23,601 nucleotides of DNA, taken from the IMG/VR virus record IMGVR_UViG_3300028025_000379, positions 1-23,601 of that record. The stretch is one strand, 5' to 3'. Positions 1 through 23,601 of this stretch are shown one piece after another. The translations under genes and the position numbers were made by a program. The stretch comes from a virus. How positions within the stretch are numbered: the stretch's first letter is position 1; every line of letters starts with the position of its first letter. The notes under the pieces are model-generated. The model saw nothing but the letters and a program-made list of their open reading frames with translations, had not been told where the DNA came from and searched no databases.

Positions 1-1
1 A

Positions 2-163
2 TATAAACTCTACCTAGAAGGCCCAGAGCGCACATTAGCAAATGGTGTGATGCGTGTTGAAGATGGGGCATTGATTCCTTTTTCTTTGGACAACCGTGAC
101 TACCAAGCCTATTTGAAATGGTTAGAAGAAGGCAATACACCCCTGCCTGCTGAGGAACAATGA
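2..163 (+). CDS. 3' end of a hypothetical phage protein (partial)
   Basis: An open frame enters from the left edge and ends with TGA at 161-163; 53 residues are visible. The end of the protein contains RVEDGALIPFSLDNRDYQ and then LKWLEEGNTPLPAEE. The pattern of acidic, proline-containing text around 'YxxYLxWLxEGNTPxPA' is common at the C-termini of small phage proteins near tail or lysis genes, but no function is established. Its stop overlaps the start of the next gene, so it belongs to the same transcription unit. The start lies outside the window. Confidence 0.6.
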   Translation, partial: YKLYLEGPERTLANGVMRVEDGALIPFSLDNRDYQAYLKWLEEGNTPLPAEEQ

Positions 164-339
164 TGCCTACAGTTGATGCCACAGATGCACGACTGTCTTC
201 CCATGAAGAGGTGTGTGCATTAAGATATGAAATTATTAATGCTCGTCTTAAACGACTAGAAAGTATATTGGTAACAGCATGTGGTATATTATTAACCAGT
301 ATGGGAGGTGTTGTTTTCACTTTGATAACACACAAGTGA
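163..339 (+). CDS. small membrane protein with N-terminal helix, lysis-associated
   Basis: This 58-residue protein has a charged helical first half (about residues 12-33, HEEVCALRYEIINARLKRLE) and one membrane segment (about 35-55, rich in L, I, G, V). That layout, a short cytoplasmic coiled coil followed by a C-terminal membrane helix, recalls XhlA-type haemolysin/holin accessory proteins, although sequence identity to that family cannot be tested here. Two ATGs stand in tandem at 160 and 163; GAGGAAC just upstream favours 163, and the first ATG makes a 4-base overlap with the previous stop. It is the first gene of a block that includes the holin and endolysin, so a role in lysis is inferred from position. 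Confidence 0.7.
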   Translation: MPTVDATDARLSSHEEVCALRYEIINARLKRLESILVTACGILLTSMGGVVFTLITHK

Positions 340-340
340 T

Positions 341-1051
341 ATGCCATTAGCCATACTAGCTGCTGCAAATGCTGCTGTTAAGGCTATTCAACAGGGATGT
401 GAGCTTTATCAGGAATACAAAGGAACTGTTTTACAAGCCAAAAAAACCTTAGACACTGCCGTAGGTATTGCCAAGGAAGTTTCAGGGGCTTCTAGGGGCT
501 TCTGGGGCTTTCTAAAGGGCAAATTCTTTGGGGAGGAAAAGCCTGTTATACAGGTTGAAGCTAAACCTCCTGAAAAGAAGGCTAAGAAAGTTCCGATAGA
601 CAGGGATGAATTGTCCATAACATTGGACATCATTGCTCAGCTTAAGGTGTTCTTCTCATGTATGACACAGCTTAAGCAAAAGCTGGCAGATGCAGAGCTA
701 CACAGCCTAGATGCTAAGAGTGATGCTGACCTCCTAAGTAGCTCAGTAGATATTGAGTATGCTATGACAGAGGTGGCTAAGCTTCAAAAGCAGATAAGAG
801 AAACAATGGTGTATCAAATAGGCGGAGACTTAGGAGACCTATACACCAAGGTGGTTAAGAGAGTAGGGATAATACAAGAACAACAAGAAGCAGCTAGGCT
901 GGTGGCTCTGAGAAAGAAGAAAGAAGAAGAGGCTATTAAAGCCCAACAAACAGCCAAGCGTCATAAGCGTTTAGCTATAGCAGCAATAGTAATACTTATA
1001 ACGGCGGAAACATGGGGACTAATGGCAGCGATAGTGATAGCAAATACATAA
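341..1051 (+). CDS. hypothetical coiled-coil protein with C-terminal membrane anchor
   Basis: This 236-residue protein starts with an Ala-rich amphipathic segment (1-30), then a Lys/Glu/Pro linker (about 65-90), a long helical region (about 90-205, ending in a charged KKKEEEAIKAQQ stretch) and one membrane helix at the C-terminus (about 210-232). I do not recognise a catalytic motif. Tail-anchored helical proteins of this kind occur beside lysis genes in environmental podoviruses; a structural or lysis role is possible. The ribosome binding site is weak and the start is one base after the previous stop, which suggests translational coupling. The last 40 bases overlap the next small gene in another frame. 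Confidence 0.6.
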   Translation: MPLAILAAANAAVKAIQQGCELYQEYKGTVLQAKKTLDTAVGIAKEVSGASRGFWGFLKGKFFGEEKPVIQVEAKPPEKKAKKVPIDRDELSITLDIIAQLKVFFSCMTQLKQKLADAELHSLDAKSDADLLSSSVDIEYAMTEVAKLQKQIRETMVYQIGGDLGDLYTKVVKRVGIIQEQQEAARLVALRKKKEEEAIKAQQTAKRHKRLAIAAIVILITAETWGLMAAIVIANT

Positions 1052-1164
1052 GCTTTCTTGTTCTTATGACTCTCTTGTGGTTCATCATCCTTCCCTTTGA
1101 GTTGCATATGTACATCAAGGTGAATAAGGCAGTGGCTATGTGTGAAAGGAAAGCAAATGAATGA
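1012..1164 (+). CDS. 50-residue single-pass membrane protein, possible spanin-like lysis protein
   Basis: This short gene begins at ATG 1012 inside the end of the preceding gene (overlap of 40 bases) and ends with TGA at 1162-1164 inside the start of the holin gene. The product has a polar N-terminus (MGTNGSDSDSKY), a membrane helix at about residues 13-32 (ISFLVLMTLLWFIILPFELH) and a short basic tail. Overlapping in different frames on both sides, together with a single membrane helix beside holin and endolysin, is typical of spanin or holin-accessory genes. No lipobox is visible, so it would not be an o-spanin. The function is inferred from place and topology only. Confidence 0.55.
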   Translation: MGTNGSDSDSKYISFLVLMTLLWFIILPFELHMYIKVNKAVAMCERKANE

Positions 1165-1606
1165 TTTATTAAACCTGCTCAAAGGAGCAGCTCCTGCATT
1201 GGCAACGGCAGTGGCTGGCCCTATGGGTGGTATGGCTATCAAGGCTATAGCAGACAAGCTTGGTGTTCCTCCTTCTGTAAGCGAGGTGACTAAAGCTTTG
1301 GAAGCAGACCCAGAGCTGGCCTTGAAGCTTAAAGAAATTGACACACGTGCCTTTGAAGCTGAGACTAAAGCAGTATCAGAGCGTTGGCAAGCAGACATGG
1401 CTTCTGATAGTTGGCTGTCTAAGAACATTAGACCAATGACTCTCATTGCCATCTTTGTTGCCTACTTCTTATTTGCTGCATTGAGTGCTGGTGGTATCAA
1501 TGTCAATGAGTCTTATGTTAAATTGTTAGGTGAATGGGGTCAGCTTATTATGCTGGCTTATTTTGGTGGCAGAACAGCCGAGAAAATTATGGAGAAAAAG
1601 AAATGA
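1157..1606 (+). CDS. holin of the three-TM (GTA holin) type
   Basis: This 149-residue protein forms membrane lesions that release the endolysin. An N-terminal hydrophobic Ala/Gly-rich segment (about 8-37) is followed by a charged helix with KALEADPELALKLKEID (about 48-75), a conserved 'W...NIRP' turn (about 94-99), and two membrane helices (about 100-117 and 128-142), ending in basic residues. The order helix, RP turn, two TM helices and basic tail is the signature of the 'holin of 3TMs, for gene-transfer release' family. ATG 1157 is preferred over the in-frame GTG at 1142 because AAAGGAAAG lies just before it. The next gene overlaps by 4 bases. Confidence 0.8.
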   Translation: MNDLLNLLKGAAPALATAVAGPMGGMAIKAIADKLGVPPSVSEVTKALEADPELALKLKEIDTRAFEAETKAVSERWQADMASDSWLSKNIRPMTLIAIFVAYFLFAALSAGGINVNESYVKLLGEWGQLIMLAYFGGRTAEKIMEKKK

Positions 1607-1887
1607 AAGAACTATTCCAACAATGGATTAACAAGTCTCCTCTTACAGAGCAAGAGATTGAAGTGAGAACATGGGCTTTTGTTGTTCGTTCAATTACCTG
1701 CATGGTGATGATCATTGCCTTTGGTGTGCTGTGGCTCATTGGCTTTGAAGAGCAAACAGGTGACTTAGCTCCTATTGATGCTGTGTTCCTAGAGATTTTG
1801 AAGGCCATTGCTTTCATGGGTGTTGGTGCTATGGGTGCTATCTCTGGACGTAAAGGTTCTGCTGCACCTGCTAAAGAAGGAGAGTGA
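1603..1887 (+). CDS. two-TM membrane protein next to holin
   Basis: This 94-residue protein starts at ATG 1603, overlapping the holin stop as ATGA. After a polar helix (1-20) come two hydrophobic segments (about 25-46, WAFVVRSITCMVMIIAFGVLW, trimmed at its end; and about 63-82, with IAFMGVGAMGAISG), then a basic tail. It could be a second holin, an antiholin or a pinholin-like partner; the sequence alone does not decide. An earlier in-frame ATG at 1534 lies deep in the holin gene and has no advantage, so it was not used. The start of the endolysin lies 1 base beyond its stop. Confidence 0.7.
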   Translation: MKELFQQWINKSPLTEQEIEVRTWAFVVRSITCMVMIIAFGVLWLIGFEEQTGDLAPIDAVFLEILKAIAFMGVGAMGAISGRKGSAAPAKEGE

Positions 1888-1888
1888 T

Positions 1889-3037: not shown

Positions 3038-3045
3038 GGAAACAT

Positions 3046-3960: not shown

Positions 3961-5561
3961 AAGAACTTAAGTCTGCTTCAGTAGGTGCTCCGGGTTTCTT
4001 TGGGTTGAACACTCAAAGCTCTGGGGCTTTGTTGTCTGACGGATTTGCCCTTGTTGCTAACAACTGTGTTATTGATAAGTATGGACGATTAGGCGCACGT
4101 AAGGGATGGGTTATGCGTACCACTGGTGGTAGTACACCATTAGCTGGCAATCCAATTAAGAGCATCTTTGAATATGTTAATGCTGATGGAACCATTGACT
4201 ACATCAGTGCTGGTAATAATAAGCTGTTTAGAGCTGGTATTGCTGGTGCATTGACAGACATCACCCCTGCTGGTTACACTGTCACAGCTGACAACTGGCA
4301 GATGGTTTCTCTTAATGACCATGCTCTCATTGTACAAAAGAGCCATGAGCCTATTGTCTTTACAAGAGAGACAGGAAGTCTTGTTGTTACTAAACTTGTA
4401 AGTCACGGCTCTGATCACGGCGGTGCTTCCTTTGCTAGTCCAGTGTTTGGTACAGGTACAGGTAATGGCCCTAATGCAGCATTGGCTGCTTATGGACGTT
4501 TCTGGGTGATTAGTACAAACAATAATAAGACCACCCTCTATTGGTCAACAGACATTGCTGACACACATTTTCCTACGTTTGATACGGGAGCATCAAGAAC
4601 ATCTGGTAGCATGAACATGTCTGCCAAGCTTCCTAACAACGTAGACGAGGCTGTTGGCCTTGCTGCACATAACGGCTACATCATTGTGTTCTTTAAGCAG
4701 AACATTGTTATGTTGCGTGGTAATGATGATAACTTCTCAAACCCCTCCACCATGTATGTGCAAGATGTCTTGCCCGGTGTAGGCTGTATTGCTAGAGACT
4801 CCATTCAAAAGACAGGCAACGATTTGTTGTTCTTGTCTTCTTCTGGTGTAAGAAGTCTTGGTCGTACTATTCAAGAGAAGAGTATGCCAATGAGAGACCT
4901 CACAGCTAATGTGCGTGATGACATCTTCTCTTACATTGAAGCAACCAACATGGATGATGTAAGAAGCTGCTACTCAGAGAAGTATGCCTTCTACTTGTTA
5001 AGCTTCCCTTCCACTGCTTCCCCTGCTGTCTATTGCATTGACCTTAGAAAGCCTTTAGAGGATGGCTCTGCACGTATAACATCATGGCTTGGCTATACAG
5101 GCTATGCATTATGTTCATGCAGAAGTGGAACATTATATGTTGGTAAGCCTAATGGTATTGGTGAATATTTTGGTTATCAAGACAATGGTGTCAAATATCA
5201 ATTCACATATTATACCAACCATTTCAACTTTGAACAACCAACAACTAACAAGATTGCTAAGAACTTAGGCATTGTGCTAATTGGTGGCGGTGGACAGAGA
5301 CTAGTTGCTAAGCTTGGCTTTGACTTCTCTACTATTTACAGCTCCTACCCCATCTCTGTAACACAGGGAGACTATGCTGAATATAACGTAGCTGAATATA
5401 ACATTGCTGAATATAGCTCTGGTGTATTCATTGAGAATGCTAAGACACCTGTTGGTGGTCAAGGCAAGATAATACAAATTGGATTTGAAGCAGAGGTTAA
5501 TGGTGCTCCATTGAGCATTCAGAAACTAGATGTGTTTGTTAAAACAGGAAAGAGTTATTAA
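3957..5561 (+). CDS. tail nozzle / tail tubular protein B (T7 gp12-like)
   Basis: This 534-residue, beta-rich protein would form the hexameric nozzle of the tail. Repeated W- and G-rich strands and the N-terminal GAPGFFGLNTQSSG and NNCVIDKYGRLGARKGW segments are typical of podoviral nozzle proteins of the beta-propeller type; T7 gp12 is longer (794). Near residue 475-490 a short tandem repeat, AEYNVAEYNIAEY, is seen, as in several relatives. The start ATG 3957 overlaps the previous stop; the GTG at 3945 is inside the previous gene. Order tube, nozzle, fibre agrees with a T7-like tail. Confidence 0.78.
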   Translation: MKELKSASVGAPGFFGLNTQSSGALLSDGFALVANNCVIDKYGRLGARKGWVMRTTGGSTPLAGNPIKSIFEYVNADGTIDYISAGNNKLFRAGIAGALTDITPAGYTVTADNWQMVSLNDHALIVQKSHEPIVFTRETGSLVVTKLVSHGSDHGGASFASPVFGTGTGNGPNAALAAYGRFWVISTNNNKTTLYWSTDIADTHFPTFDTGASRTSGSMNMSAKLPNNVDEAVGLAAHNGYIIVFFKQNIVMLRGNDDNFSNPSTMYVQDVLPGVGCIARDSIQKTGNDLLFLSSSGVRSLGRTIQEKSMPMRDLTANVRDDIFSYIEATNMDDVRSCYSEKYAFYLLSFPSTASPAVYCIDLRKPLEDGSARITSWLGYTGYALCSCRSGTLYVGKPNGIGEYFGYQDNGVKYQFTYYTNHFNFEQPTTNKIAKNLGIVLIGGGGQRLVAKLGFDFSTIYSSYPISVTQGDYAEYNVAEYNIAEYSSGVFIENAKTPVGGQGKIIQIGFEAEVNGAPLSIQKLDVFVKTGKSY

Positions 5562-7126: not shown

Positions 7127-7990
7127 ATGGCAAGCGATGTAATGACACTATTTAATATGCCCACTCAACAGCAGTTGGGTCAACGCTACCTTGAGAGTCA
7201 GATGACTAGCCCTGCACAGATGGGTAATCAAGGCTTGCTGCAACAGGTTGCTTCCTTGGGTGGTAATGCTGGTGCTCTAGCAGGCTATGCTGGTGGACGT
7301 TTGTTTGGTGGTGCTACACCAGAGCAAATCAGAGCCAAGGGCATTGAAGAAGCTATGATGAAAGTGCAAGGCTTAGGACTCAAAAGCGATGCTGATATGT
7401 ATTCAGCCTTGTCTAAAGAGCTGGCTGCACGTGGCTTAACACAAGATGCTTTCTTAGCTAACAAAGAAGCACGTACAGCTATGCGTGAAGAGCAAGTGCT
7501 TAAGAAGGGCGGTGTTGATATTGAATTAGCTAATGCTCAACTTACTAAATCTAAACAAGATTTGCTTACTCTTGAACAACGTATTGCACAGAGCACAGAC
7601 CCTGAAGAGAGAAAGGGACTCATGCGTGATCTGGAGGCTAAGGGCTTGGAAGTTAAGAAAACCCAATCTTATATTGACTACCATGAGAAGATGGCTAAGG
7701 CTGCTCTGATGAATGCTGAAGCAAACAAGAACAGAGTTGGTGCTGCTGCTGAAGGTGAGAAGTTTACCATCCCAGTGTATGCTCCCGGCATTGTTCCCGG
7801 TACACGTGGTGACATCATTGGTAGACAGAACAAGCTAGGACAAGTGATGGGTAATGACGGTGCTATTTATAACAGCGTCAATGAACTCAATGCAGCTAGA
7901 GGAGCAGGAACAGGTAGTCCTATACCAGATAGTGTTATTGTTAAACCGCCTAAAACACCAACTAAACCACTCTCTGCATTCGGAGGTTAA
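7127..7990 (+). CDS. putative internal virion protein 2
   Basis: This 287-residue protein starts after TAAGGAAAT with ATG 7127. It opens with a short hydrophobic/Gln-rich part, contains a Gly-rich segment (about 45-63, GGNAGALAGYAGGRLFGG), then a charged coiled coil (about 95-195, with ELANAQLTKSKQDLLTLEQR) and a Pro/Lys-rich tail. This layout resembles ejection proteins that line the periplasmic channel; no catalytic residues are recognised. It stands between two other internal-virion-type genes in one operon. Confidence 0.58.
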   Translation: MASDVMTLFNMPTQQQLGQRYLESQMTSPAQMGNQGLLQQVASLGGNAGALAGYAGGRLFGGATPEQIRAKGIEEAMMKVQGLGLKSDADMYSALSKELAARGLTQDAFLANKEARTAMREEQVLKKGGVDIELANAQLTKSKQDLLTLEQRIAQSTDPEERKGLMRDLEAKGLEVKKTQSYIDYHEKMAKAALMNAEANKNRVGAAAEGEKFTIPVYAPGIVPGTRGDIIGRQNKLGQVMGNDGAIYNSVNELNAARGAGTGSPIPDSVIVKPPKTPTKPLSAFGG

Positions 7991-10048
7991 ATGGCTGAAC
8001 TAATGCTCAGCCCAGAAGAGCAAGTGATGTCATCAGTGGGGGCTACAGGAGTAGAACCTACTGGTGGCTTTGATCTTACTGGAGCTTTACAAGAAGGCTA
8101 TTCTCCTGCACAAATTGCTGACTACTTAGCCAGCAAGAAAAGCTTTGATGTTGCAGGAGCTAGAGCTGAAGGATATACAGATCAACAAATCTTAGCACAC
8201 CTGACAGGCAACACTGCCTTCTCTGCTGGTGTTAAACGTTTTGTTGAGAGTGCTGGTAGCAGCATCAAGGGCATTGCTCAAATGGCTGGAGCTGCCGACA
8301 CAGAACGTCTACGTGCTGAGAGACAAGCAGCTGAGATTGCTTCTGCTAACAACCCATACATTGGTGGCACAGCTGAATTTGCTGGAGCCATTGCTGACCC
8401 TATTAACTTACCTGCTGTGGCCCTTGCTCCATTACGTGGGGCTACACTCGTGGGCACTATGGCTAGACAGGGCGCTGCACAAGGCGCTCTTGGTGGCTTC
8501 CTAGAGCCTGTTCTCAAGGAAGGTGCTGACACTGGCTTCTTGTCTGCTGATCGTGCTAAGGGAGCTGCTGTAGGCACAGCTGCTGGCTTTGCTCTGGGTG
8601 GTGTGCTTGGTAAGGGAGCTGAGTCTCTTGTTAATTATTTAACAAAGAAGGCTGATGTTCCTCTGTCTGACATTCCTCAAGGGAAGCAGGCTACAGATGC
8701 TGCCTTGTCAGATGTTGCTAAAGCAATTGATGAGCCAGTGACTAACGAGCGTGTGTTCAGAGATGCACAGTATGATTATAAACCTCTGTCTGTCTTAGAG
8801 AAAACCCTGATTGATCAACGCATTGCTGCTCTTGAGGGAGACATTGTAAAGCTTTCAGAAGAAAGAACAAGGGTTGACACTACAGAGACAGCAGAGAAAC
8901 AAGTTGCTTCTTTGTTACAGGGAGAGACTAAAGCTCCAGTGCAGACAGCTGATAACTTGCCATCAAAGATGACAGGCTTGGTGTCTCCCACTAAAGCTCA
9001 ACCAACTAAACAAACACCAGCCTTGTTCCAAGGAAAGAAGGTTGTTGATGTTAAGGAAGCACCACAGGTTGCTTCTCTGTTTAAAGGCTATTCCTTAGAC
9101 ACTGACCTCAAGGCTAAGCAAGCAGAGGTTGATGCTCTCAAGGCTAAGCTTGCTCAAGACCAAGAAATTAAACTGAGACAAGTTACTGGCAAGTTACCTG
9201 AGCCTCTGGTGCAGGTAGAAACAAAGACAGCTCCTCGCTTTGCTGAGCAGCCAGTGATCACCAGAGAGGGAGAAGTTCCTCCTGCTGCATTGTCTCCTCC
9301 TCCTAGAGCCAGTGTTGTTTCTACACAACAAGTGACACCAGAGGTGCAGGCTGTCTTAGAGCGTAATGGCTTTAGGACAATGGAAGAAGCTAATGCTGCC
9401 TTGGGCAAGAGTCCATTAGACAGAGCAGGCATGGCTGGCTCAGTGGGTTCTATGCGTACTGACCCCTACCTGAAGCTGGCTGGTGATATTCCCTTTGAGA
9501 CTAACCCAGAGAAGGTGTTCAATCCTGCCTATCGTGGACGCATTGATGCAGACCCAGTGTCTGTTGATGCTGCCATCAATGACATGCACATGAAGGCTGT
9601 GGCTGCTACAGGCAGGACAGGCAGAGACCTGCGTGGCAGAGGACGCATGGGTGGTAGCCTTGAAGCTACAGCTACACTGGGCGAGAAGCAAGCAGCACGT
9701 ATGACAGCAGAAGAAGGCGGAGTCCTTGATTGGGCCTTGCAGAATGCTGATAAGAGCTGGAATAGAGAAGAGCTGGCAGCGTTCATGCCTCAATATAAAG
9801 AAGCTCAGGCTTTCCTTGGTGCTCAGATTGATGAGTATAACAGACTGAGAAGCCTTGGTCAACTCACCAAAGAAGCTGAGCAAACCATTATGCACAGATC
9901 ACAGGTTCCTCTGGGTGTTATGTCCATCTTCCAAGGACAAAGAACTAAAGCATCTGATCAATTGAATGCTTTTAAACTAGCGTATAATAGTATTAGTCAA
10001 GGGAAAGAAGTAAAAGGATTTGCTACTCCCGGACGTACTTGTTTATAA
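7991..10048 (+). CDS. large internal virion protein, N-terminal part of a divided polyvalent protein
   Basis: This 685-residue protein starts at ATG 7991 directly after the previous TAA. Residues about 30-46 and 56-71 hold two copies of a short helical motif, 'AxxEGYSxxQIxxYL'. Next comes a hydrophobic, Gly/Ala-rich stretch (about 125-212, with TMARQGAAQGALGGF and GAAVGTAAGFALGGVLGKGA) that could insert into membranes, then long coiled-coil segments (about 270-300 and 365-395) and a Pro-rich linker. The end (about 640-675, AFKLAYNSISQGKEVKGF) looks like the middle of a helical region rather than a natural domain end. In many phage large polyvalent proteins this part is fused to the sequence encoded by the next gene. 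I infer a gp15/gp16-like ejection role. Confidence 0.62.
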   Translation: MAELMLSPEEQVMSSVGATGVEPTGGFDLTGALQEGYSPAQIADYLASKKSFDVAGARAEGYTDQQILAHLTGNTAFSAGVKRFVESAGSSIKGIAQMAGAADTERLRAERQAAEIASANNPYIGGTAEFAGAIADPINLPAVALAPLRGATLVGTMARQGAAQGALGGFLEPVLKEGADTGFLSADRAKGAAVGTAAGFALGGVLGKGAESLVNYLTKKADVPLSDIPQGKQATDAALSDVAKAIDEPVTNERVFRDAQYDYKPLSVLEKTLIDQRIAALEGDIVKLSEERTRVDTTETAEKQVASLLQGETKAPVQTADNLPSKMTGLVSPTKAQPTKQTPALFQGKKVVDVKEAPQVASLFKGYSLDTDLKAKQAEVDALKAKLAQDQEIKLRQVTGKLPEPLVQVETKTAPRFAEQPVITREGEVPPAALSPPPRASVVSTQQVTPEVQAVLERNGFRTMEEANAALGKSPLDRAGMAGSVGSMRTDPYLKLAGDIPFETNPEKVFNPAYRGRIDADPVSVDAAINDMHMKAVAATGRTGRDLRGRGRMGGSLEATATLGEKQAARMTAEEGGVLDWALQNADKSWNREELAAFMPQYKEAQAFLGAQIDEYNRLRSLGQLTKEAEQTIMHRSQVPLGVMSIFQGQRTKASDQLNAFKLAYNSISQGKEVKGFATPGRTCL

Positions 10049-12222: not shown

Positions 12223-12308
12223 TACCAATGCCTCCAAGCGTTAGCTATTATGTGTAAGCAGGTGATCATCTCGACCACCCGCATAAGCACGTTGACGTTA
12301 AATTTCAC
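12222..12308 (-). CDS. candidate 28-residue micro-protein between RNR and the last gene
   Basis: A short frame starts with GTG 12308 inside the last codons of the reductase gene and ends with TAA that overlaps the next ATG (TAATG). The product, MKFNVNVLMRVVEMITCLHI plus eight residues ending in WRHW, is hydrophobic with a Trp-rich end. Tight coupling at both ends and the lack of any other use for this stretch support it; the upstream binding site is weak (GCGGG). The alternative ATG at 12284 would give a 20-residue product. Confidence 0.35.
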   Translation of the reverse strand: MKFNVNVLMRVVEMITCLHIIANAWRHW

Positions 12309-14199
12309 ACACACCCGCTGTACAAGCCAGCATCTGAGTTCCTTCAACATTATCATCCACCTCAATCAAACTGTCCCAATCAATAGTGGCTGGTGTTGTA
12401 GCTAACAGAGCTTCATATTGTTCCTTAGTGCAGTCTTCATAGGGAGCCTGACGATAGCTACCACCATCATAAGGCAAGAAGGATACACCAGACATCTCGT
12501 CAAAGTATTTCCATACGAAAGCACCAACTTCAGGCCACTCATGTTCAGAGACAGAGATGGTGACAGAAGGCTTATGCTCACACCAGTGACGCTGATAGGC
12601 CAGCCATAGCTTCAAATGCTGCAAGGCTGTCAGGTCTTTACGAAGCATAGCACCAGCAGGCGCTCTCTTAGGGAATGTGAACACCACAGTTTGATCAGGC
12701 TTCATAACACATGGCTCAGCTGTTACCCCTGAATCAATGAGGTGTTGTGTCAACGGGTCTTTCTTGTCTCCACGAACTCGTCTAAAGTAATACTCAGCGT
12801 GTCTAGCATGGATGCCAGATGCGCTGTCAGTGAGCTGAGACACCGTGCCACTAGGCTTAACACAAGTAATGGCAGCACTAGCAGGAATACCGAGATGCTC
12901 AGCAACAATTGCATTAGTTGCAACACAAACATTCTTAAGTTCATTTAACAAGTGCTCCAAGCGTGAGTCATCGGGGTTGTTCAACAAAGCATTGTCGAGA
13001 ATGCCTGTCATTGATACACCAAGCAAACGCTCTTCTTCTGTGTTCTTCTGCCACACCTTACGTAGATAGGGGAAGTGAGTCAATGTACTCTGGAATGTAC
13101 CCAGAATGGTAGCCAAACGTGCCTTACGTTTTAGACTGTCAGCTGTGTCATCAGCACGTACAATTATTTCGGAAAGATTACAGAATTGATATGGTCGAAG
13201 AATGATTTCAGAACAGGGATTAGTCCCGAAATCAAAGTCACTATTGCGTCTTCCATTTTGTTTCACCACCTTCTTAGCTGCTTCACGATTGAAGATACCA
13301 CGTTCACCACTCTTGCTTTCATACAAAGCATTCCATTCCTGCATGAAGATGCCAACATCAGGACGCTCTGTATAGCAGGCACTGTTATTAGCCAAGGCAC
13401 GTTGACCATTCTTCTCCCACCATGCACCACTCTTAGCATGGCGCATACGATCATCAGATAGGTTGGACAAGCTAATCATAGCACTGCGGCGTACACCACC
13501 TACGACTACCACCTCACCAATCTTACACATAATGTCATGGCATTCAAGGCTGTTGAGCTTACGTCCCTTAGCACCCTTGAAGATGTTACAAACAAATTGG
13601 AACAATTCAACCAATGGCTCTGGCCCTGAAGCACGACCACCAAAAATCTTAAGACGAGCACCTTTAGGGCGAACCTTTGATACGTCCCATTTTGGGACTT
13701 CGCCTGCATAGAGCAGGGCAATCACCTGACGCAGAGCTTTGGCCCATCCCTCTTTGCTGTCTGACACTACAACAACTGTGTTGCTTTCAAACAACTCTTC
13801 TGGAATGTCAGGCAACTTCTGAATGCTCTGACGTTCAACAGAGAAGCCAACACCAGTACCACACAAGAGGATGTACATGGCCTCGTCAAAGGCTTTGGCA
13901 TCATCAATGGGCAGGTAGCTACAGTTGTAGCCAGCTGTGTTGTCACGCTCTAAAGCCTTGCCTGCTGTCATCAAACTACGCATAGAGGGCATCACCTCCA
14001 TGTTAACTACAGCACTCTCCAGTTCCTTACGCATTGTGTCACTAAGCGTGTAGTCTTGGTTCTTCTTCAGCTGTGCTGTCATGAAGTCGAAGTAACGACT
14101 CACTGTCTCTTCCCATCCCTCACGGCGTTGCTCACTATCCATGTAACGTGCATATCGACTCTTGGCAATATACTGCTCATAACTTCCCATGTATTTCAT
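12298..14199 (-). CDS. nrdJ: adenosylcobalamin-dependent ribonucleoside-triphosphate reductase (class II, monomeric)
   Basis: This 633-residue enzyme reduces ribonucleoside triphosphates to deoxy forms in the cytoplasm, using a thiyl radical made with vitamin B12 coenzyme and no second subunit. It corresponds to the Lactobacillus leichmannii type. The active site FGTNPCSEI has N327, C329 (thiyl) and E331; the redox pair is C93 (in AGYNCSYLP) and C340 (in FCNLSE); the C-terminal relay pair is C626/C631 in CTAGVC. Spacings 327/329/331/340 and 626/631 are exactly those of 406/408/410/419 and 731/736 in the type enzyme. It is about 100 residues shorter than that enzyme (739). AAGGAAC precedes the ATG; the upstream 51-residue gene overlaps by 4 bases. 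A B12-making or B12-importing host is implied. Confidence 0.95.
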   Translation of the reverse strand: MKYMGSYEQYIAKSRYARYMDSEQRREGWEETVSRYFDFMTAQLKKNQDYTLSDTMRKELESAVVNMEVMPSMRSLMTAGKALERDNTAGYNCSYLPIDDAKAFDEAMYILLCGTGVGFSVERQSIQKLPDIPEELFESNTVVVVSDSKEGWAKALRQVIALLYAGEVPKWDVSKVRPKGARLKIFGGRASGPEPLVELFQFVCNIFKGAKGRKLNSLECHDIMCKIGEVVVVGGVRRSAMISLSNLSDDRMRHAKSGAWWEKNGQRALANNSACYTERPDVGIFMQEWNALYESKSGERGIFNREAAKKVVKQNGRRNSDFDFGTNPCSEIILRPYQFCNLSEIIVRADDTADSLKRKARLATILGTFQSTLTHFPYLRKVWQKNTEEERLLGVSMTGILDNALLNNPDDSRLEHLLNELKNVCVATNAIVAEHLGIPASAAITCVKPSGTVSQLTDSASGIHARHAEYYFRRVRGDKKDPLTQHLIDSGVTAEPCVMKPDQTVVFTFPKRAPAGAMLRKDLTALQHLKLWLAYQRHWCEHKPSVTISVSEHEWPEVGAFVWKYFDEMSGVSFLPYDGGSYRQAPYEDCTKEQYEALLATTPATIDWDSLIEVDDNVEGTQMLACTAGVCEI

Positions 14200-14351: not shown

Positions 14352-15105
14352 AGCGTTCCTTCAAGTAGCTGAGGCTAACAGGAAGCTCATCAAATGCCCC
14401 ATCCTCCACCTCATTAAACATCCAGATACCTGACCAGCTACCATTGGTTTGAGGGGTTAGATAGCCTTCGTCATGGGTGTAGCAGATGCCACCAAACAGC
14501 CCTGTCATACGCTTACCATCAGCCCTACGTGCATAGGCAATACCTCTGTCCTGTACGTGTCCCATCACACAGCTCATGTGCTTCTTGGACAGCATGAGAG
14601 CAGGGCTAGATACTGGCCTACCCATCACACCACTAGTGAAGTAATGACAATAGGCAACACCATCAATAACAACTGGCTGCAAGAAAGGAAAACATTCAAA
14701 GCCATACTCATCCAGCTTGAAGTCATGATAGCCAATGAGTCCATCCAACTTCCTATCTGATTCGATAGCCCTTTGTATACGTTCTTCATGGTTGCCAAGC
14801 AAGAACACCATACGTGGATTCCATTGCTTCTCCTTGTTACGTTTAAGACGGGCCTGCTCCTCTTTAATGGGGGCTAGAAGGGCCTGCATACCAGCATGAC
14901 CAGCCTCTATGTCAGCATGGTAGGTGCGTCCCTCAAAGCTCTTCTTACCCACATCGTAGATGGACAGGCTAGGCATATCCCAATGATCACCAAGGTGGAT
15001 GATGACATCAGGCTTCTTGTCTGCTGCATACTTACCAACCCATGTCAGATGATTGAAGCTATTGCCGGGCTTACATTGCGTGTCGGGAATAACTAAGTGT
15101 CTCAT
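14332..15105 (-). CDS. calcineurin-like metallophosphoesterase
   Basis: This 257-residue enzyme carries the dinuclear metal site of the family: D8 and Q10 in PDTQ (usual D-x-H), GDHWD with D40 and D43, GNHEE with N105 and H106, H154 in YCHYF, and GHVQD with H183 (usual GHxH). Substitution of His by Gln in both the first and the last motif is notable, but is common in phage members I recall. Substrate is unknown; nuclease or nucleotide phosphatase activity are both plausible. It overlaps the upstream gene by 4 bases (ATGA) and lies between small genes and the RNR in the nucleotide-metabolism part of the operon. Confidence 0.85.
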   Translation of the reverse strand: MRHLVIPDTQCKPGNSFNHLTWVGKYAADKKPDVIIHLGDHWDMPSLSIYDVGKKSFEGRTYHADIEAGHAGMQALLAPIKEEQARLKRNKEKQWNPRMVFLLGNHEERIQRAIESDRKLDGLIGYHDFKLDEYGFECFPFLQPVVIDGVAYCHYFTSGVMGRPVSSPALMLSKKHMSCVMGHVQDRGIAYARRADGKRMTGLFGGICYTHDEGYLTPQTNGSWSGIWMFNEVEDGAFDELPVSLSYLKERYEPNHS

Positions 15106-15617: not shown

Positions 15618-15692
15618 TGGTCTGCCCTATAGGAATCGAACCTATATCTACAGCTTAGAAGGCTGCTGCACTATCCATTGTGCTAAGGGCAG
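15618..15692 (-). tRNA. tRNA-Arg (anticodon UCU) with encoded CCA
   Basis: Read on the - strand from 15692: a 7-bp acceptor stem (CTGCCCT with AGGGCAG), D arm GCAC/GTGC with an 8-base loop, anticodon arm GCAGC/GCTGT with loop CTTCTAA (anticodon TCT), a 4-base variable loop, and T arm ATAGG/CCTAT with loop TTCGATT. The discriminator A is followed by genomic CCA (15618-15620). All four stems pair, with one G-U pair in the anticodon stem. It starts 4 bases after the ThyX stop, so it is cut from the operon transcript. It would read AGA, a frequent arginine codon in these genes. Confidence 0.95.
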
Positions 15693-16459: not shown

Positions 16460-16764
16460 GTTATAAAACTCCTGACAACTTCTGGTAGATAGCCACCAAC
16501 AAGCTGGAACCTAGAAGCTTTCTTAACACGTGCTCTGATAAGTTCTTCTGCATTCTTCTGGCGGTCAAACTCCCAAACATCAGCTTCAACAATGAGCTTG
16601 TAACATTCCTCATCATCCTTAGCTACCACTGCTTGCATACCACCATACTCACTAGATGGGAATGGAACCCAGTAGTTAACTAGATAGAGGGTGTAGCCTT
16701 CACTTGGCTCTGGTTGTACGCTTTCTGGCTGCTCTTGGTTCTTGCTGCCCTTTGGTCTTCCCAT
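16456..16764 (-). CDS. 102-residue protein with N-terminal AT-hook-like motif
   Basis: The start MGRPKGSKN resembles the AT-hook core (GRP flanked by basic residues), which binds the minor groove of AT-rich DNA. A Gln/Glu/Pro-rich linker follows (10-22), then a globular part with YTLYLVNYWVPFPSSEYGG (about 24-42) and two helices. ATG 16764 is chosen because AAAGGAAAGAAT precedes it; the longer frame to 16902 lies within the HNH gene. It overlaps the HNH gene by 65 bases and the next gene by 4. The function is not known to me; a DNA-binding role is suggested only by the short basic motif. Confidence 0.68.
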   Translation of the reverse strand: MGRPKGSKNQEQPESVQPEPSEGYTLYLVNYWVPFPSSEYGGMQAVVAKDDEECYKLIVEADVWEFDRQKNAEELIRARVKKASRFQLVGGYLPEVVRSFIT

Positions 16765-17173
16765 ATTCTTTCCTTTCGTCTTTCTCTTCTTGTGTCTTGA
16801 TTGAATGACATGGCTTACACAACACCTGTAAGTTTTCTTTCTCACAGAACATGTTGTTAATATATTCTTCCCACGTTGTGAAGCCTGTCTTTGTGTTAAC
16901 AACAGGAAGGATGTGGTCTACCTGTACATCAGCTGCTACAAACTCTTTCTTGCAACATGCACACTTGTAGTGCATAGCCAGCTTATTTGTTTTCTTATTG
17001 GTACGTCTACCAACATACGCTTCCTTCAAGGCTTTGTATTTAGGGGGCCACCTACGTGTTGCTGTACGTAGAGCAGAGACAACAAAGCTTCTAAACCTTG
17101 CTGGTGTCCACTCTCCACAGTTGTACAAACGTTTGATGGAGGAGGTTTCCGAAGGCTTCGACTTCTCGTTCAT
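16700..17173 (-). CDS. HNH endonuclease
   Basis: This 157-residue nuclease has the zinc-stabilised HNH fold: CACC (C71, C74), the catalytic VDHI (D86, H87), N114 in KENLQVLC, and CKPCHSIKT (C119, C122, H123). The N-terminal 60 residues are basic and may bind DNA. Free-standing HNH proteins are frequent in podoviruses as homing endonucleases or packaging helpers; this one is in the replication operon, so homing is more likely than packaging. The ribosome binding site is poor, and the gene overlaps its upstream neighbour by 83 bases and the downstream one by 65, which suggests coupled and perhaps low translation. Confidence 0.88.
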   Translation of the reverse strand: MNEKSKPSETSSIKRLYNCGEWTPARFRSFVVSALRTATRRWPPKYKALKEAYVGRRTNKKTNKLAMHYKCACCKKEFVAADVQVDHILPVVNTKTGFTTWEEYINNMFCEKENLQVLCKPCHSIKTQEEKDERKEYGKTKGQQEPRAARKRTTRAK

Positions 17174-18577: not shown

Positions 18578-18778
18578 TTATTGTAACGTATTTCCACTAG
18601 CCTTGTCAAGTGCTCCACGCATAACCATGTTAGCAGCAGCACTATTAAGAATGTTTAACACATCTTCATCTGTGTCGAAAGGACTATGAACCAAGACAAG
18701 TTGGTTGTCCTTAACAAACAAGTGAACAGAGGTGTCACATTCCCTTGCAAGCTTTTCAATTTGTTCTTCGTATGTCAA
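18578..18778 (-). CDS. 66-residue hypothetical protein downstream of DNA polymerase
   Basis: The protein starts at TTG 18778, overlapping the polymerase stop as TTGA, with GGAAGGAAAC upstream; this is a better start than the TTG at 18793. It opens MTYEEQIEKLARECDTSVHL, followed by a strand pair (FVKDNQLVLVHSPFD) and an Asn/Ala-rich helix. I do not recognise it. The strand-helix layout and acidic start suggest a small regulatory or accessory protein of replication, which is inference from location. Confidence 0.62.
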   Translation of the reverse strand: MTYEEQIEKLARECDTSVHLFVKDNQLVLVHSPFDTDEDVLNILNSAAANMVMRGALDKASGNTLQ

Positions 18779-20565
18779 TGTGTTTCCTTCCAATTAGCTC
18801 CGATGTTATATTCGCCGGAAACAGGACAGAACAAACTTAGTTGTACCCCTGCCTCTTCGATAGATTGTACAGCAAGTTTGCCAACAACATCAGCATACTG
18901 TTTCTTTGTTTCAATCTGCCATTCATCATGCACATTAGCACAGAAGCCGTGAGGAATCTTATGCTTATGTAGGTGGTTACTAAGAAGTACTAACGCTTTC
19001 TTCATGACGATTGCACCAGCGCCCTGTAATAAACTGTTAAGGGCAGCGTGCTCTGAACGCACCCAAATCTTTCTACCATCAAGGCCCGGTACATAGCCCT
19101 TGGACGAGACCAAGGATACCTTATCACGTAAACGCTTGAGTGCGGGAGTCCCTTCAAGAAAGGAATTGATGAGCTTCTGTCCAGCCGTAGCACTACCACC
19201 GACAATCGAGCCAATCTTCGCAGCCCCTGCCCCATAGAGGAAGGCGTAGATGAATGTCTTTGCTTGGTCACGTGTTTGTAACGAGGCTGCTTTTTGGTTA
19301 ATCGTGTGGACATCCGTGCCATCCTTAGACGATCCTTCGCACACTGTTTTAACATACGCACTGTCCTTCATGTAATGTGCCAGCATACGCAGCTCAAGGC
19401 CACTAGCATCAGCACCAACTAACACATTGTCTTTGTCCACTGTCCAAAGCTCACGACACTCAGGGCCATACACACTGCCACTGTTAGGAACTTGAGCCAT
19501 GTTAGGAGAGCTATGTGTCATGCGTCCAGTGACAGCACCATTGGTAATCACCTTGCCATGCACACGACCATCTTCTCTCACTTCCTCAAGCCAGCTAGAC
19601 ACCTGAGCTACACGTTTCTGCAACATCAGATATTCTAACAGAGCCTTAGCTTCTGGCAGGTCAATCTTCTCCAGCACCTTCTCGTCAACAATGATGGAAC
19701 CTTTGTCTGTGGTCTTTGAAAACTTAACACCTAGTCCTTGTAACCTCTCAGCAATCTGTTGTCGAGAGCCGGGGTTGAAGGGGATGCTCTTTGTTTTCAT
19801 AGGGCCAGCAACAGCTTCATCAGCAAGAGAAGGCTTGAGACCTGCATCCTTGAGTACTTGCTTCAGCTCTGTCTTTGTCTCTGCTTGGTAACTACCTAGT
19901 AACCAGTAGGCTGGTTTCTTCATTTCCTCAATGATGGGTGGGAAGATAGTTTGTAATTGGTTTTCAATATCCACCATCTTACCAGATAGAGTCGCCAGTA
20001 AGCCCTGAGCTTTCTGAATGTCAAGTTTAAACCCATGTTCATGTTGCTTCTGAATGATGATTGCTACGTCATGCTCAAGCTTACGACACTCGTCAGAGAA
20101 CTTGTCTTGGTCTAGCAACTTGTCAATAGCTTTCTCCACCTTAACCAACACAGCTACGTCTTGTTTGCAATATTCAAACATGAGGGGTAGGTCTGGATTG
20201 TCATAGCAGTTACCTTCTAGGCCAAGCTCTTTCCATCGTTGTTCGTAATCAATCTTGCTCTCTCCAACTCTTTCTCCCCAATCCTTCAGCCTGTGGCCTC
20301 CGTCTAAATTTGGATTGTATAGACGAGACAAGATCAAGGTATCTTTCGCTTTCTTCGCTGGTATCGTCACTCCCCAACACCTCTTTAGAACTGGCCCATC
20401 GAAGCCTATCAAGTTGTGTGCGATCACTGTTTCTGAGTTTGCGATTAAGGGTGTGAGTGTATCCGGCTTTGTGTGACATACATATCCATTGGTTTCATCG
20501 TAAGTGAAACAACACCAAATCTTTTTGTGGTTGGTTGTTGTCTCAATGTCTAGATAGAGTTTCAC
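18775..20565 (-). CDS. DNA polymerase, family A (T7-like), with 3'-5' proofreading domain
   Basis: This 596-residue replicase has an N-terminal exonuclease: ExoI D6/E8 (LDIETT), ExoII about N50/D55 (HNLIGFD), ExoIII Y131/D135 (YCKQD). Polymerase motif A is ADASGLELR (about D385), motif B RDQAKTFIYAFLYGAG (about 431-446), motif C VHDE (about 544-547). The motif B tyrosine equals T7 Tyr526, not the Phe of E. coli Pol I. It is about 110 residues shorter than T7 gp5 (704); the thioredoxin-binding loop seems to be missing, so processivity must come from elsewhere. The start is GTG 20565 (GGAG upstream), overlapping the preceding stop as GTGA. Confidence 0.95.
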   Translation of the reverse strand: MKLYLDIETTTNHKKIWCCFTYDETNGYVCHTKPDTLTPLIANSETVIAHNLIGFDGPVLKRCWGVTIPAKKAKDTLILSRLYNPNLDGGHRLKDWGERVGESKIDYEQRWKELGLEGNCYDNPDLPLMFEYCKQDVAVLVKVEKAIDKLLDQDKFSDECRKLEHDVAIIIQKQHEHGFKLDIQKAQGLLATLSGKMVDIENQLQTIFPPIIEEMKKPAYWLLGSYQAETKTELKQVLKDAGLKPSLADEAVAGPMKTKSIPFNPGSRQQIAERLQGLGVKFSKTTDKGSIIVDEKVLEKIDLPEAKALLEYLMLQKRVAQVSSWLEEVREDGRVHGKVITNGAVTGRMTHSSPNMAQVPNSGSVYGPECRELWTVDKDNVLVGADASGLELRMLAHYMKDSAYVKTVCEGSSKDGTDVHTINQKAASLQTRDQAKTFIYAFLYGAGAAKIGSIVGGSATAGQKLINSFLEGTPALKRLRDKVSLVSSKGYVPGLDGRKIWVRSEHAALNSLLQGAGAIVMKKALVLLSNHLHKHKIPHGFCANVHDEWQIETKKQYADVVGKLAVQSIEEAGVQLSLFCPVSGEYNIGANWKETH

Positions 20566-21160: not shown

Positions 21161-21161
21161 G

Positions 21162-21311: not shown

Positions 21312-21463
21312 GTCTTCTTCTTTCTAAGTACAAGTAACTTGGTAGTTACCTTGACATATTTGTTTCCATGTTTGTCTTGCCTCTCCACTCCATGCATTGT
21401 CTTAGCTGGCAAGTTAGAAGGGAAGGGCCATGTTGTGTCTTCCTTAAATGGTTTCTTCGTCAC
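21308..21463 (-). CDS. 51-residue basic hypothetical protein
   Basis: The frame starts at GTG 21463 within the last codons of the primase-helicase gene (20-base overlap) and ends with TGA overlapping the next ATG. The product begins MTKKPFKEDTTWPFPSNLPA and has a Lys/Arg-rich end (TTKLLVLRKKKT). A start on GTG, with AAGGA about 10 bases upstream, and full use of the gap between neighbours support it. Function unknown. Confidence 0.55.
   Translation of the reverse strand: MTKKPFKEDTTWPFPSNLPAKTMHGVERQDKHGNKYVKVTTKLLVLRKKKT
21334..21349. repeat. inverted repeat GTAACT-4-AGTTAC
   Basis: GTAACT (21334-21339) and AGTTAC (21344-21349) are exact inverted copies separated by TGGT. The same arms, separated by 5 bases, occur upstream of the first - strand gene at 23572-23588. 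This copy lies within the 51-residue gene. Confidence 0.35.
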
Positions 21464-23057
21464 GCTCTGTCATCCTTCCTGTATATTTATTATACAACAA
21501 CTTACATGCTGGCCCAGTGATGCCACTGAAACGGTTCTTTAACACCCTCACCTTGGTGGTGTTACGTTCTGTCTCATCCTCTGCCTGACCATTACGTTCC
21601 AAACCAATCACCATGTCTGACAGCTGAGCAATGGAGCCTGATCCACGCAGCTGAGCCAGAGATGTGGCTGCTCCCTCTTCATGTCCCTTGTCAGAAGGAC
21701 GCTTGAGGTGGGACACAATGATGAGGCTAATGCCTGTCTTCTGCACCAAGGTACGAAGCTCTGTCATCACCATGTCCAATGCCTTACGTTCATCACCATT
21801 CTCTTGGCTGCTTACAACAATGGATACATGGTCAAGAAATACATAGCCACAGCCAAATGCAACTGAGAATTCCTCAACACGTTTGATGATGTTCTCAATG
21901 TTAGTACTACCAAAATGGTCGAACATATAAAGGCGGTCAGTGCCAAGAGTTGCGTCAAAAGCATCACGTTTTTCCTGTTCAGTTGCATCACAGTCTGGTA
22001 GATGCAGGGGTTTATTAGCAGCCAAGCTCATCAATGACAAGCCTGTCTTACGCACACTCTCTTCCAAGAACATCAAGCCTACGTTGTCTGTTGTCTTGTT
22101 GAGGATGTGCCATATCACCTCACGTAAAAACTGACTCTTGCCTAAGCCTGAGCCTGCTGTGACAGTGACCAGCTCACCCTTACGAATACCATACGTCAGC
22201 TTGTTAAGACCATCGTAGGGGTAGGACACCTCTGCCTTATCCAAGGGCTTAGACACGCTCTCCCAAAGCGTAGAGGCAGGGACAATACCATCAGGCATGA
22301 CACGCTCAGCTGCCCACCAACGATCAATGAATTCTTTTTCCTTGCCTGCTAACAGAAAGTCACAGCCATCCTTATACCCATCAATGGGCTTGAATGTCTT
22401 GGCCTTGCCTGCAAACATAGAAGCAACCTGCTTAGCTGCCTGCTGCCCTGCTTCATCACTGTCAAAACAGATGACGATGTTCTCAAAGGAAGACATCCAT
22501 TCATATTGTTCCTTGCAATCCTTGGCTGCACTGCCTGCCCCATTACGAATGGAAACAACAGGCCACTTGCTACCAAGCATTTGATAGACAGCCAATGCAT
22601 CATATTCCCCTTCAACGATGGTGAGATATTTACCACCCTTGGTGAACAGCTGCTGACCAAACAAGCCAGTGCCTTTCCATTCACCAACAGTTTGAAAGTC
22701 TTTGCCTGCAATGGTTCGTTTCTTTGCAGCAAATAGTTTCTCTTCCTTGTAATAAGGAAACAAGATGTGTGTTGTGTCAGCCACCACCCCATAGCGTTCC
22801 ACTGTTGCTTTGCTAATGCGTCTGCTCCCAATGGTTGGGGTTGGCAGGCTATGAAAGGACGCACGAAGGGCATTCACAGCCTCTTGATTGATCTCTTTCA
22901 ACGGGGTGTATGGCATGGTAGCCTCAATCATTTTGGTAGCCTTTGTGTGTGTGTTACAGACGAAGCAATAGGTGCTGCCGTCTTCGTTAATTGATAGACC
23001 ATCACTGCTGTCGCAGGTCGGGCTTGTGCATGGTTGGTGTGTCTTCACGAATGCCAT
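21444..23057 (-). CDS. primase-helicase (T7 gp4-like)
   Basis: This 537-residue protein makes primers and unwinds DNA at the fork. The N-terminal zinc finger has C10, C15, C31 and C34; the TOPRIM primase core shows VEGEYDA (E149) and CFDSDEAG (198-204). The helicase domain follows: Walker A AGSGLGKS (301-308), catalytic glutamate in FLEES (about 332), Walker B YVFLDHV (D409), and the SH in IIVSHLKRP (about 450). Length is close to T7 gp4 (566). AGAGGAACCAA precedes ATG 23057. The upstream gene overlaps by 56 bases. As in T7, the full-length form with zinc finger suggests coupled priming. Confidence 0.95.
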   Translation of the reverse strand: MAFVKTHQPCTSPTCDSSDGLSINEDGSTYCFVCNTHTKATKMIEATMPYTPLKEINQEAVNALRASFHSLPTPTIGSRRISKATVERYGVVADTTHILFPYYKEEKLFAAKKRTIAGKDFQTVGEWKGTGLFGQQLFTKGGKYLTIVEGEYDALAVYQMLGSKWPVVSIRNGAGSAAKDCKEQYEWMSSFENIVICFDSDEAGQQAAKQVASMFAGKAKTFKPIDGYKDGCDFLLAGKEKEFIDRWWAAERVMPDGIVPASTLWESVSKPLDKAEVSYPYDGLNKLTYGIRKGELVTVTAGSGLGKSQFLREVIWHILNKTTDNVGLMFLEESVRKTGLSLMSLAANKPLHLPDCDATEQEKRDAFDATLGTDRLYMFDHFGSTNIENIIKRVEEFSVAFGCGYVFLDHVSIVVSSQENGDERKALDMVMTELRTLVQKTGISLIIVSHLKRPSDKGHEEGAATSLAQLRGSGSIAQLSDMVIGLERNGQAEDETERNTTKVRVLKNRFSGITGPACKLLYNKYTGRMTERDEETI

Positions 23058-23184
23058 TTGGTTCCTCTTGTTGTGGCTCTAGTGTATCAGGTTTTTTACC
23101 AAAAATCAAATCCCAATTGTTAAGGATGGCTTGTGCATTTTCCTTGCGTCTTGCACTGCCCTTGCCTCCATCACCATGTGTCAT
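23002..23184 (-). CDS. 60-residue hypothetical protein upstream of primase-helicase
   Basis: The protein starts MTHGDGGKGSARRKENAQAI and has a conserved-looking NNWDLIFGKK segment (about 22-31) followed by a polar Glu/Pro/Gln-rich tail. Short proteins with 'GxGSxRR...WDxIFGKK' occur early in several podovirus and siphovirus replication operons; their role is unknown to me. ATG 23184 begins one base after the previous stop, without a strong binding site. The last 56 bases lie in the primase gene in another frame. Confidence 0.65.
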   Translation of the reverse strand: MTHGDGGKGSARRKENAQAILNNWDLIFGKKPDTLEPQQEEPNGIREDTPTMHKPDLRQQ

Positions 23185-23185
23185 A

Positions 23186-23377
23186 TCAATGCTTCCAATT
23201 GTCTAACAAATCCTGCATAAAGGCTTTCTCTTCAGCTGTAAATTCTCGTGCTTCTTTACTTGCGTTAAGCACTACGGAAAGAGCTTGTTGAAAACCTTCA
23301 TACCCTATGTGTGAAATGAGTTCACGTATATCCATCAACGTAAACATCATGTGTGCTTCATGTTCAAATGTCTTCAT
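23186..23377 (-). CDS. 63-residue hypothetical helical protein
   Basis: The product runs MKTFEHEAHMMFTLMDIREL to a C-terminal EEKAFMQDLLDNWKH and is almost wholly helical. GAGG upstream fits ATG 23377 better than the tandem ATG at 23380; earlier in-frame ATGs back to 23407 lie inside the upstream gene in a low-complexity stretch and are unlikely. It overlaps the upstream gene by 14 bases. No family is recognised. Confidence 0.6.
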   Translation of the reverse strand: MKTFEHEAHMMFTLMDIRELISHIGYEGFQQALSVVLNASKEAREFTAEEKAFMQDLLDNWKH

Positions 23378-23555
23378 CATTGTCCTCATTAACATCATCA
23401 TCCTCATGCCTCAAGTCTGAGCGTTCAACAGCACAAACATCTTCCTTCATGTGATGATAACAAACATTACAAACATCTAGGAAACCACCTGTTGCTGCAC
23501 TTCTACGTGTAGCTTCAAAGTCTGTCAGTTCATCATTACAACAATAACATCTCAT
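23364..23555 (-). CDS. small zinc-ribbon protein
   Basis: This 63-residue protein has CYCC near the start (C3, C5, C6) and CNVC (C29, C32), giving a likely four-Cys zinc ribbon of the type 'MxCYCCNxxLxDFE...CxxCY', common as a small phage protein. The last 17 residues are an acidic tail (Asp/Glu/Asn only after RHE). AAGGAAGAAGAC precedes ATG 23555. It is the first complete gene of the - strand arm in the window. It may act as a nucleic-acid or protein adaptor; function is not known. Confidence 0.78.
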   Translation of the reverse strand: MRCYCCNDELTDFEATRRSAATGGFLDVCNVCYHHMKEDVCAVERSDLRHEDDDVNEDNDEDI

Positions 23556-23571
23556 GTCTTCTTCCTTATAA

Positions 23572-23588
23572 GTAACTGTCTAAGTTAC
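23572..23588. promoter_or_regulatory. inverted repeat GTAACT-5-AGTTAC in front of the - strand genes
   Basis: GTAACT (23572-23577) and AGTTAC (23583-23588) form an exact inverted repeat just upstream of the ribosome binding site of the zinc-ribbon gene. It could be an operator or part of a leader hairpin; the promoter itself would be at or beyond the right edge and is not visible. Confidence 0.35.
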
Positions 23589-23601
23589 ATACTATGTTAA
23601 T

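Follow-up and report, generated by a model that had tools for sequence, protein, structure and literature searches.

Avoidance of CCWGG in an uncultivated podovirus and changing sets of avoided palindromes among its relatives

Background

Elimination of restriction sites from phage genomes is a known phenomenon. In the passages of the survey by Rusinov et al. 2018 (PMC6286503) drawn on here, 7.1% of Type II sites are eliminated, compared with less than 0.5% for other types, and roughly one-tenth of viral genomes show complete or almost complete elimination, which is nearly confined to sites of the orthodox Type II class; non-temperate phages are where elimination occurs most often. Here we analyze the absence of CCWGG (W, A or T) from a stretch of 23,601 bases that makes up positions 1 to 23,601 of the linear IMG/VR virus record IMGVR_UViG_3300028025_000379 (hereafter, the window), and the fate of this and other palindromes among its relatives. 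Both EcoRII and PspGI recognize CCWGG, as does MvaI, a neoschizomer of EcoRII (PMC4081073). As in the cases of the survey, a Type II site is eliminated in a double-stranded DNA phage; the difference is that the survey, in the same passages, paired phages with known hosts, whereas here a dense set of relatives shows switching of the avoidance. Because elimination of Type II sites is already known as an escape route, one such genome is nothing unusual by its nature, although extreme in strength.

Five named phages in which the word was counted show how such genomes compare (counts are given here and below as observed/expected). Escherichia phage T7 (NC_001604) is nearly devoid of CCWGG (2/59) and poor in GATC (6/143), but it keeps two CCWGG sites, and GGWCC is only reduced (54/88). 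Lentibacter phage vB_LenP_ICBM2 (MF431616), with a ribonucleotide reductase 69.5% identical to that of the window, has likewise nearly lost CCWGG (1/69) along with CGCG (0/24); it differs in the loss of CCGG (0/41), of which the window has 15 copies, and in keeping GGWCC (34/43). The other three have not come close to losing CCWGG. In Anabaena phage A-4L (NC_024358), whose capsid protein belongs to the closest matches, at 28%, for the one encoded by the 39 kb relative G003, several palindromes are wiped out together (GGWCC 0/28, GATC 0/97, GGCC 0/42), but CCWGG is not avoided (45/65). Pelagibacter phage HTVC104P, counted over bases 1-50000 of 54,359, has lost GATC (0/150) but differs in retaining CCWGG (29/46) and in its guanine plus cytosine (GC) content of 31%; ACGT (1/12) and GCGC (0/7) are also scarce in this phage. 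In the uncultured marine phage AP013544, with CCWGG at 20/41, another word, GTAC, is nearly purged (7/96). We found no description of the present clade in the literature searched, a scope that did not extend to bioRxiv preprints or to the majority of journals under subscription.

CCWGG and other words in the window

Neither CCAGG nor CCTGG occurs in the window, so that a direct count bears out the complete absence of CCWGG proposed in the initial annotation; the GC content, put there at about 43%, is 44.7%. Shuffling of synonymous codons within each of 29 in-frame genes, which together span 21,297 coding bases, yields a mean of 26.9 sites (range 11-41), in agreement with the 25-30 previously estimated for chance. 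Dinucleotide shuffling gives a mean of 43.1 and a minimum of 26 in 300 shuffles, and the maximal-order Markov expectation is 37.0, so that the absence is upheld against Markov and codon-shuffled nulls alike. By our own nulls, rather than the bias formula of the survey, the observed/expected ratio lies below 0.1 at an expectation above 15, the thresholds for elimination used by Rusinov et al. 2018, and the word is among those read by orthodox Type II enzymes, the class to which that survey assigns nearly all such cases.

The avoidance is visible in the choice of codons. The proline codon before a GG codon is CCC (9) or CCG (2) in all 11 cases, exactly as the initial annotation had it, although CCA and CCT, described there as the commoner codons elsewhere, account for 214 of the 264 proline codons of the window; the eight Pro-Gly positions that it listed are correct to within 0-2 bases. 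In another reading frame, C precedes a CAG or CTG codon followed by G in none of 83 cases, compared with 44 of 163 for the control codons CAA, CTT, CTA and CTC.

The initial annotation described one site in one phage, which holds for CCWGG but misses three further words, as well as the changing set of words in the relatives. The window likewise contains no GGWCC, CTGCAG or CGCG (codon null means of 13.3, 10.0 and 12.9, respectively), and GATC is merely reduced (35, codon null 59.3). CCSGG (S, C or G) and GGSCC are present, at 12 (codon null 5.8) and 23 (17.7) copies, and are not short; thus, it is the pentamers with a central W that are avoided, as would be the case for enzymes that read CCWGG and GGWCC rather than CCNGG and GGNCC. 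GGWCC is zero also in the close relatives G1305 (0/23) and G003 (0/22). CTGCAG, a PstI-type site on which similar pressure may act, is rare (0-1 copies) in 7 of the 8 long avoiding relatives described below and normal in the eighth, G012 (28/26). CpG is strongly under-represented in the window (observed/expected 0.38).

Avoidance of CCWGG among the relatives

Relatives were collected from IMG/VR by the DNA polymerase (at least 80) and by a 685-residue gene at 7991-10048 (10, including L139, which duplicates the record of L005), and their word counts were compared with Markov expectations. The ten relatives found by the latter gene hold CCWGG either not at all (eight loci) or once (two loci). 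Eight records of 33-41 kb, the near-full length of which is inferred from their size, avoid the word: five lack it (G1305 0/59, G003 0/56, G002 0/57, G008 0/43, G014 0/40), and three have a single copy (G1307 1/57, G004 1/49, G012 1/36). Comparison of genomes within the clade thus extends the avoidance from the window, the length of which is about 60% of that of its 39 kb relatives, over relatives of 38-41 kb. Three further records exceed 32 kb, G006 (1/91), G007 (25/62) and G015 (49/67).

The 51 kb G006 (the record of L012, with loci L092-L094) looks like a chimera or recombinant. Approximately its first 25 kb have a GC content of 0.43-0.46 and the remainder 0.49-0.54, with CpG and GATC denser in the higher-GC part; CCWGG occurs once in the whole record.

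Site turnover and probable replacement of lost sites

Two relatives, L143 and L146, diverge from the window by 5.0% and 5.2% over 19,011 and 16,471 aligned bases, respectively. From the rate of one-sided sites per near-miss in 30 control word classes, 16.8 and 15.5 one-sided CCWGG sites would be predicted for the two pairs, and 9.6 and 8.8 one-sided GGWCC sites, although fair expectations are about half of these because the controls count losses and gains together; moreover, with the window as a member of both pairs, the comparisons are not independent. No one-sided site of either word was found in either pair, which for CCWGG is still far from the halved expectation. Given that no new CCWGG appeared at 5% divergence where control words turned over, selection against this word looks current.

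More distant relatives that retain the words point to how sites may have been replaced. None of the 8 alignable CCWGG sites of L014 is shared with the window, and 4 of the 8 differ in the central base only, giving CCSGG; similarly, none of the 7 alignable GGWCC sites of L003 is shared, and for 4 of the 7 the central base is the sole difference, which makes them GGSCC. Controls such as GCWGC are shared in 27 of 50 cases with L003 but in only 8 of 22 with L014, so that at 72% identity L014 keeps only about one-third of the controls and its unshared CCWGG sites are modest evidence. Pooled over the clade, CCSGG stands at 1.77 times the expected count in 49 avoiders, compared with 1.08 times in 25 non-avoiders.

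Switching of avoided words across the clade

A quick polymerase tree was built with 82 rows (the window, 79 relatives, HTVC104P and AP013544; the partial match L054 was left out), in which 37 of 72 inner branches are strongly supported and 11 are unresolved. For each word, rows with an expectation of at least 5 were scored as avoiding at a ratio below 0.25 and as non-avoiding above 0.5, the rest being dropped. For CCWGG, 49 of the 75 classified rows avoid the word and 26 do not (7 dropped), which takes at least 7 changes. The fewest changes for the other words, with avoiding and non-avoiding rows in parentheses, are 9 for GGWCC (23 and 20), 8 for GATC (27 and 45), 7 for GGCC (28 and 36), 8 for CGCG (23 and 23), 3 for ACGT (14 and 58), 5 for GCGC (7 and 65) and 4 for CCGG (5 and 45).

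The purged sets (words at zero or under a quarter of expectation) comprise up to seven palindromes from among CCWGG, GGWCC, GATC, GGCC, ACGT, CGCG, GCGC, CCGG and CTGCAG. The 38.5 kb L044 (G012) has GATC 0/119, ACGT 0/71, CGCG 0/22, GGCC 2/25 and CCWGG 1/36, and L036 lacks GATC, GGCC, CGCG, GCGC and CCGG, with ACGT at 1/31 and CCWGG at 9/10. In a small branch formed by L029, L030, L040, L041 and L043, ACGT is nearly gone (0/17, 0/21, 3/26, 2/24 and 2/43, respectively) and CCWGG is close to chance. GGWCC is close to chance in L003 (G002; 22/23) versus zero in the window, G1305 and G003; as L003 and the window diverge by about 20% over alignable DNA, purging and regain would be fast. Whether the clade amounts to a readable record of the restriction repertoires of its hosts, in which each lineage purged a different word set and both purging and regain proceed fast, is, in our judgment, an even call.

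Sample or library preparation was considered as a cause of the missing CCWGG and rejected because both states occur inside one metagenome, for example, 3300025889 (0/7, 15/15 and 0/11).

Cause of the avoidance

Overall, the absence of CCWGG very probably reflects avoidance of a restriction site, for which a host Type II enzyme that reads this word is the best explanation. Selection by a restriction enzyme, as proposed in the initial annotation, is well supported because the avoidance is specific to the word, spans relatives of 38-41 kb, is kept over recent divergence, switches between lineages and shows no signature of deamination. Under this explanation, an uncultivated podovirus clade would be under current, strong selection against CCWGG because a Type II restriction enzyme directed at this 5-bp site would be common among its hosts. 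Unmethylated incoming phage DNA would be cut at CCWGG, so that copies already present disappear and newly arisen ones are not retained; any tolerated change could replace a lost site, with Pro-Gly pairs taking a central C or G. GGWCC, CTGCAG and perhaps CGCG would report further enzymes of the same host range. On leaving the hosts that carry a given enzyme, a lineage would regain the respective site up to the chance level, and on encountering a different enzyme, it would purge another word. We infer the role of a host restriction enzyme as the agent, the correspondence of each word to one enzyme and the direction of each switch.

The narrower proposal that the host enzyme is EcoRII-like fared less well than Type II restriction itself. 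EcoRII requires several sites to cut efficiently (PMC4081073, in the portion of that work used here), so that isolated sites should be tolerated. Complete loss, as in five of the eight long avoiding records (the other three keep one copy), fits such an enzyme less well and tentatively favours one for which a single site suffices; furthermore, the host searches assigned no enzyme. The additional suggestion that the phage does not rely on protective methylation fits the gene content. Neither C5 (PF00145) nor N4/N6 (PF01555) methylases were found in the window, which is a fragment and in which D12-type adenine methylases were not searched for. Across the clade, where most records are fragments, PF00145 was detected in 1 of 55 records, the window included, and PF01555 in 0 of 46; among the 39 kb relatives, G003 lacks both, and G1305 and G1307, searched with that model only, lack PF00145. 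The single PF00145 match is a partial C5 DNA methylase at the start of contig L071 (3-1061), the word counts of which are GATC 0/29, ACGT 0/17, CGCG 0/16, CCWGG 0/9 and GGCC 1/13.

A Type IV modification-dependent nuclease would likewise remove exactly CCWGG if an orphan Dcm-like enzyme methylated the word in one host and the next host cut it. We consider this improbable: a matching orphan methylase would be needed for each purged word in each lineage, and, in the sections of the survey used here, most Type IV sites are only slightly reduced (PMC6286503).

Alternatively, the phage itself could make a CCWGG-specific nuclease, for instance, the HNH endonuclease of the window, that destroys host or rival DNA while the site-free phage genome is immune. 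When only records with the exonuclease gene are considered, relatives of the HNH gene are present in 21 of 46 avoiders versus 1 of 18 non-avoiders. However, the carriers lie mostly on the side of the tree that includes the window, so that the association is confounded by kinship; 25 of the 46 avoiders have no HNH match; L014 has the gene and yet holds 25 CCWGG of 62 expected; and purges of GATC, GGCC and ACGT elsewhere would not be explained. A phage-made nuclease may have acted in the branch of the window itself, but we consider it very unlikely as the cause.

Deamination of 5-methylcytosine at Dcm sites acts in known bacteria, and the avoided word is the Dcm site, so that Dcm-like methylation in the host could have turned CCWGG into CTWGG or CCWAG. 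We find this explanation highly unlikely. An excess of CTWGG/CCWAG in the 49 avoiders over the 25 non-avoiders was looked for, counted as CTAGG and CCAAG, and not seen (1.05 and 1.03 times the expected counts versus 1.11 and 1.12 times, respectively), and in the window, L005, L001 and L003 together the same products stand at 1.02 and 1.06 times. The excess sits instead in CCSGG, which is no product of deamination, and some lineages show purges of the same kind for GGWCC, GATC and ACGT. Finally, chance or composition is already refuted as the cause, given that none of the 2,000 codon shuffles and none of the 300 dinucleotide shuffles reaches zero, and the long relatives concur.

Apart from the limits of the turnover and alignment comparisons given above, several observations weigh against restriction by a host enzyme as the cause. 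The long records G007 and G015 keep many CCWGG sites, and some avoiders retain several (L009 4/32, L060 2/22). Among the close relatives, GGWCC is not wholly absent from all (G1307 3/22, L141 2/8), and CGCG is only reduced in G1305, G003 and G1307 (3/19, 2/14 and 4/16, respectively). Many relatives are short, and states with expectations of 5-8 are noisy, as illustrated by GGWCC in L050 versus L046 and by CCGG in L034 versus L033 with identical polymerases. Furthermore, the polymerase, transfer RNA (tRNA) and host-marker approaches assigned no host, and hence no enzyme was matched: a six-pattern search for the DNA polymerase in bacterial genomes gave 15 relatives, none more than 44% identical, and the EcoRII C-terminal domain is present in 4 of 299 genomes of a family titled Comamonadaceae, a weak host candidate, in a search in which 0 of 14 control genomes carried the domain and which therefore has no positive control.

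Host searches

The names of the host-sample groups rest on the record titles of their centre genomes. The tRNA-Arg of the window has its best match, at 80.6 bits and 85% identity, among 399 genomes of the Comamonadaceae-titled family. In the alphaproteobacterial class sample, the best match is at 73.4 bits (83-87% over 60-74 bases), with 4 of 289 genomes matching at 1e-12, and in the Bacteroidetes phylum sample at 71.6 bits (82%), with 11 of 198 at 1e-12; nothing was found at the stricter 1e-14 limit in the 369 genomes of the gammaproteobacterial class sample. No spacer of a clustered regularly interspaced short palindromic repeat (CRISPR) array was among the matches listed for the Comamonadaceae-titled family sample, all of which are to the tRNA, with 19991-23601 of the window outside the query. 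Likewise, no host-marker gene was among the matches listed for 77 chosen proteins of relatives (25/34 Pfam families).

The nearest isolates by DNA polymerase are Pelagibacter phages HTVC103P, HTVC104P and HTVC115P (47-49%). The capsid protein of G003 is nearest to those of cyanophages (28-31%), and the best 15 of 1,189 phage records that match the ribonucleotide reductase, at 66-70% identity, are all phages of alphaproteobacteria. A SAR11 host, as suggested by the nearest isolates, was not adopted because capsid, portal and reductase disagree in the hosts to which they point.

Gene content of the window

Genes for the tail and other parts of the virion lie on the plus strand. The minus strand holds the B12-dependent ribonucleotide reductase, ThyX, tRNA-Arg(TCT), the HNH endonuclease, an exonuclease, the T7-type DNA polymerase and a primase/helicase (Table 1). 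Copies of tRNA-Arg(TCT) in the relatives vary in their stems, and the copy of the window lacks two bases that are present in five others.

Table 1. Coordinates of Pro-Gly sites and selected genes in the window
Feature	Coordinates	Strand	Basis
Whole window, CCWGG absent (also GGWCC, CTGCAG, CGCG)	1..23601	.	counts and nulls
CCGGG at Pro-Gly pair in virion structural gene (3945-5561; phrog_3287); 3988 in the initial annotation	3990..3994	+	
CCCGG at Pro-Gly pair; 4771 in the initial annotation	4773..4777	+	
Two CCCGG Pro-Gly pairs (7784, 7796)	7784..7800	+	
CCCGG at Pro-Gly pair	10028..10032	+	
CCCGG at Pro-Gly pair	10252..10256	+	
CCCGG at Pro-Gly pair	10999..11003	+	
CCCGG at Pro-Gly pair	11563..11567	+	
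B12-dependent ribonucleotide reductase gene	12298..14199	-	phrog_367, E 1.1e-185
CCCGG at Pro-Gly pair (read on - strand)	15065..15069	-	
tRNA-Arg (TCT), CCA encoded	15618..15692	-	ARAGORN; aligned with copies from five relatives
HNH endonuclease gene, considered as possible phage-encoded CCWGG cutter	16700..17173	-	phrog_3106, PF01844
T7-type DNA polymerase gene, basis of the tree of relatives	18775..20565	-	
CCGGG at Pro-Gly pair in DNA polymerase gene (read on - strand)	19085..19089	-	
CCCGG at Pro-Gly pair in DNA polymerase gene (read on - strand)	19769..19773	-	
Primase/helicase gene	21444..23057	-	phrog_239

Implications

What the clade adds to the known phenomenon is a dense lineage record of avoidance being switched on and off, with relatives in opposite states for at least eight words. 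Such opposite states let the gain and loss of avoidance be timed, and the set of relatives indicates that selection is current. The set of missing words is, moreover, a testable prediction about the enzymes of the host. If the clade does record the restriction repertoires of its hosts, the profile of purged words could be matched to the Type II gene sets of bacteria and thereby point to hosts for uncultivated phages.

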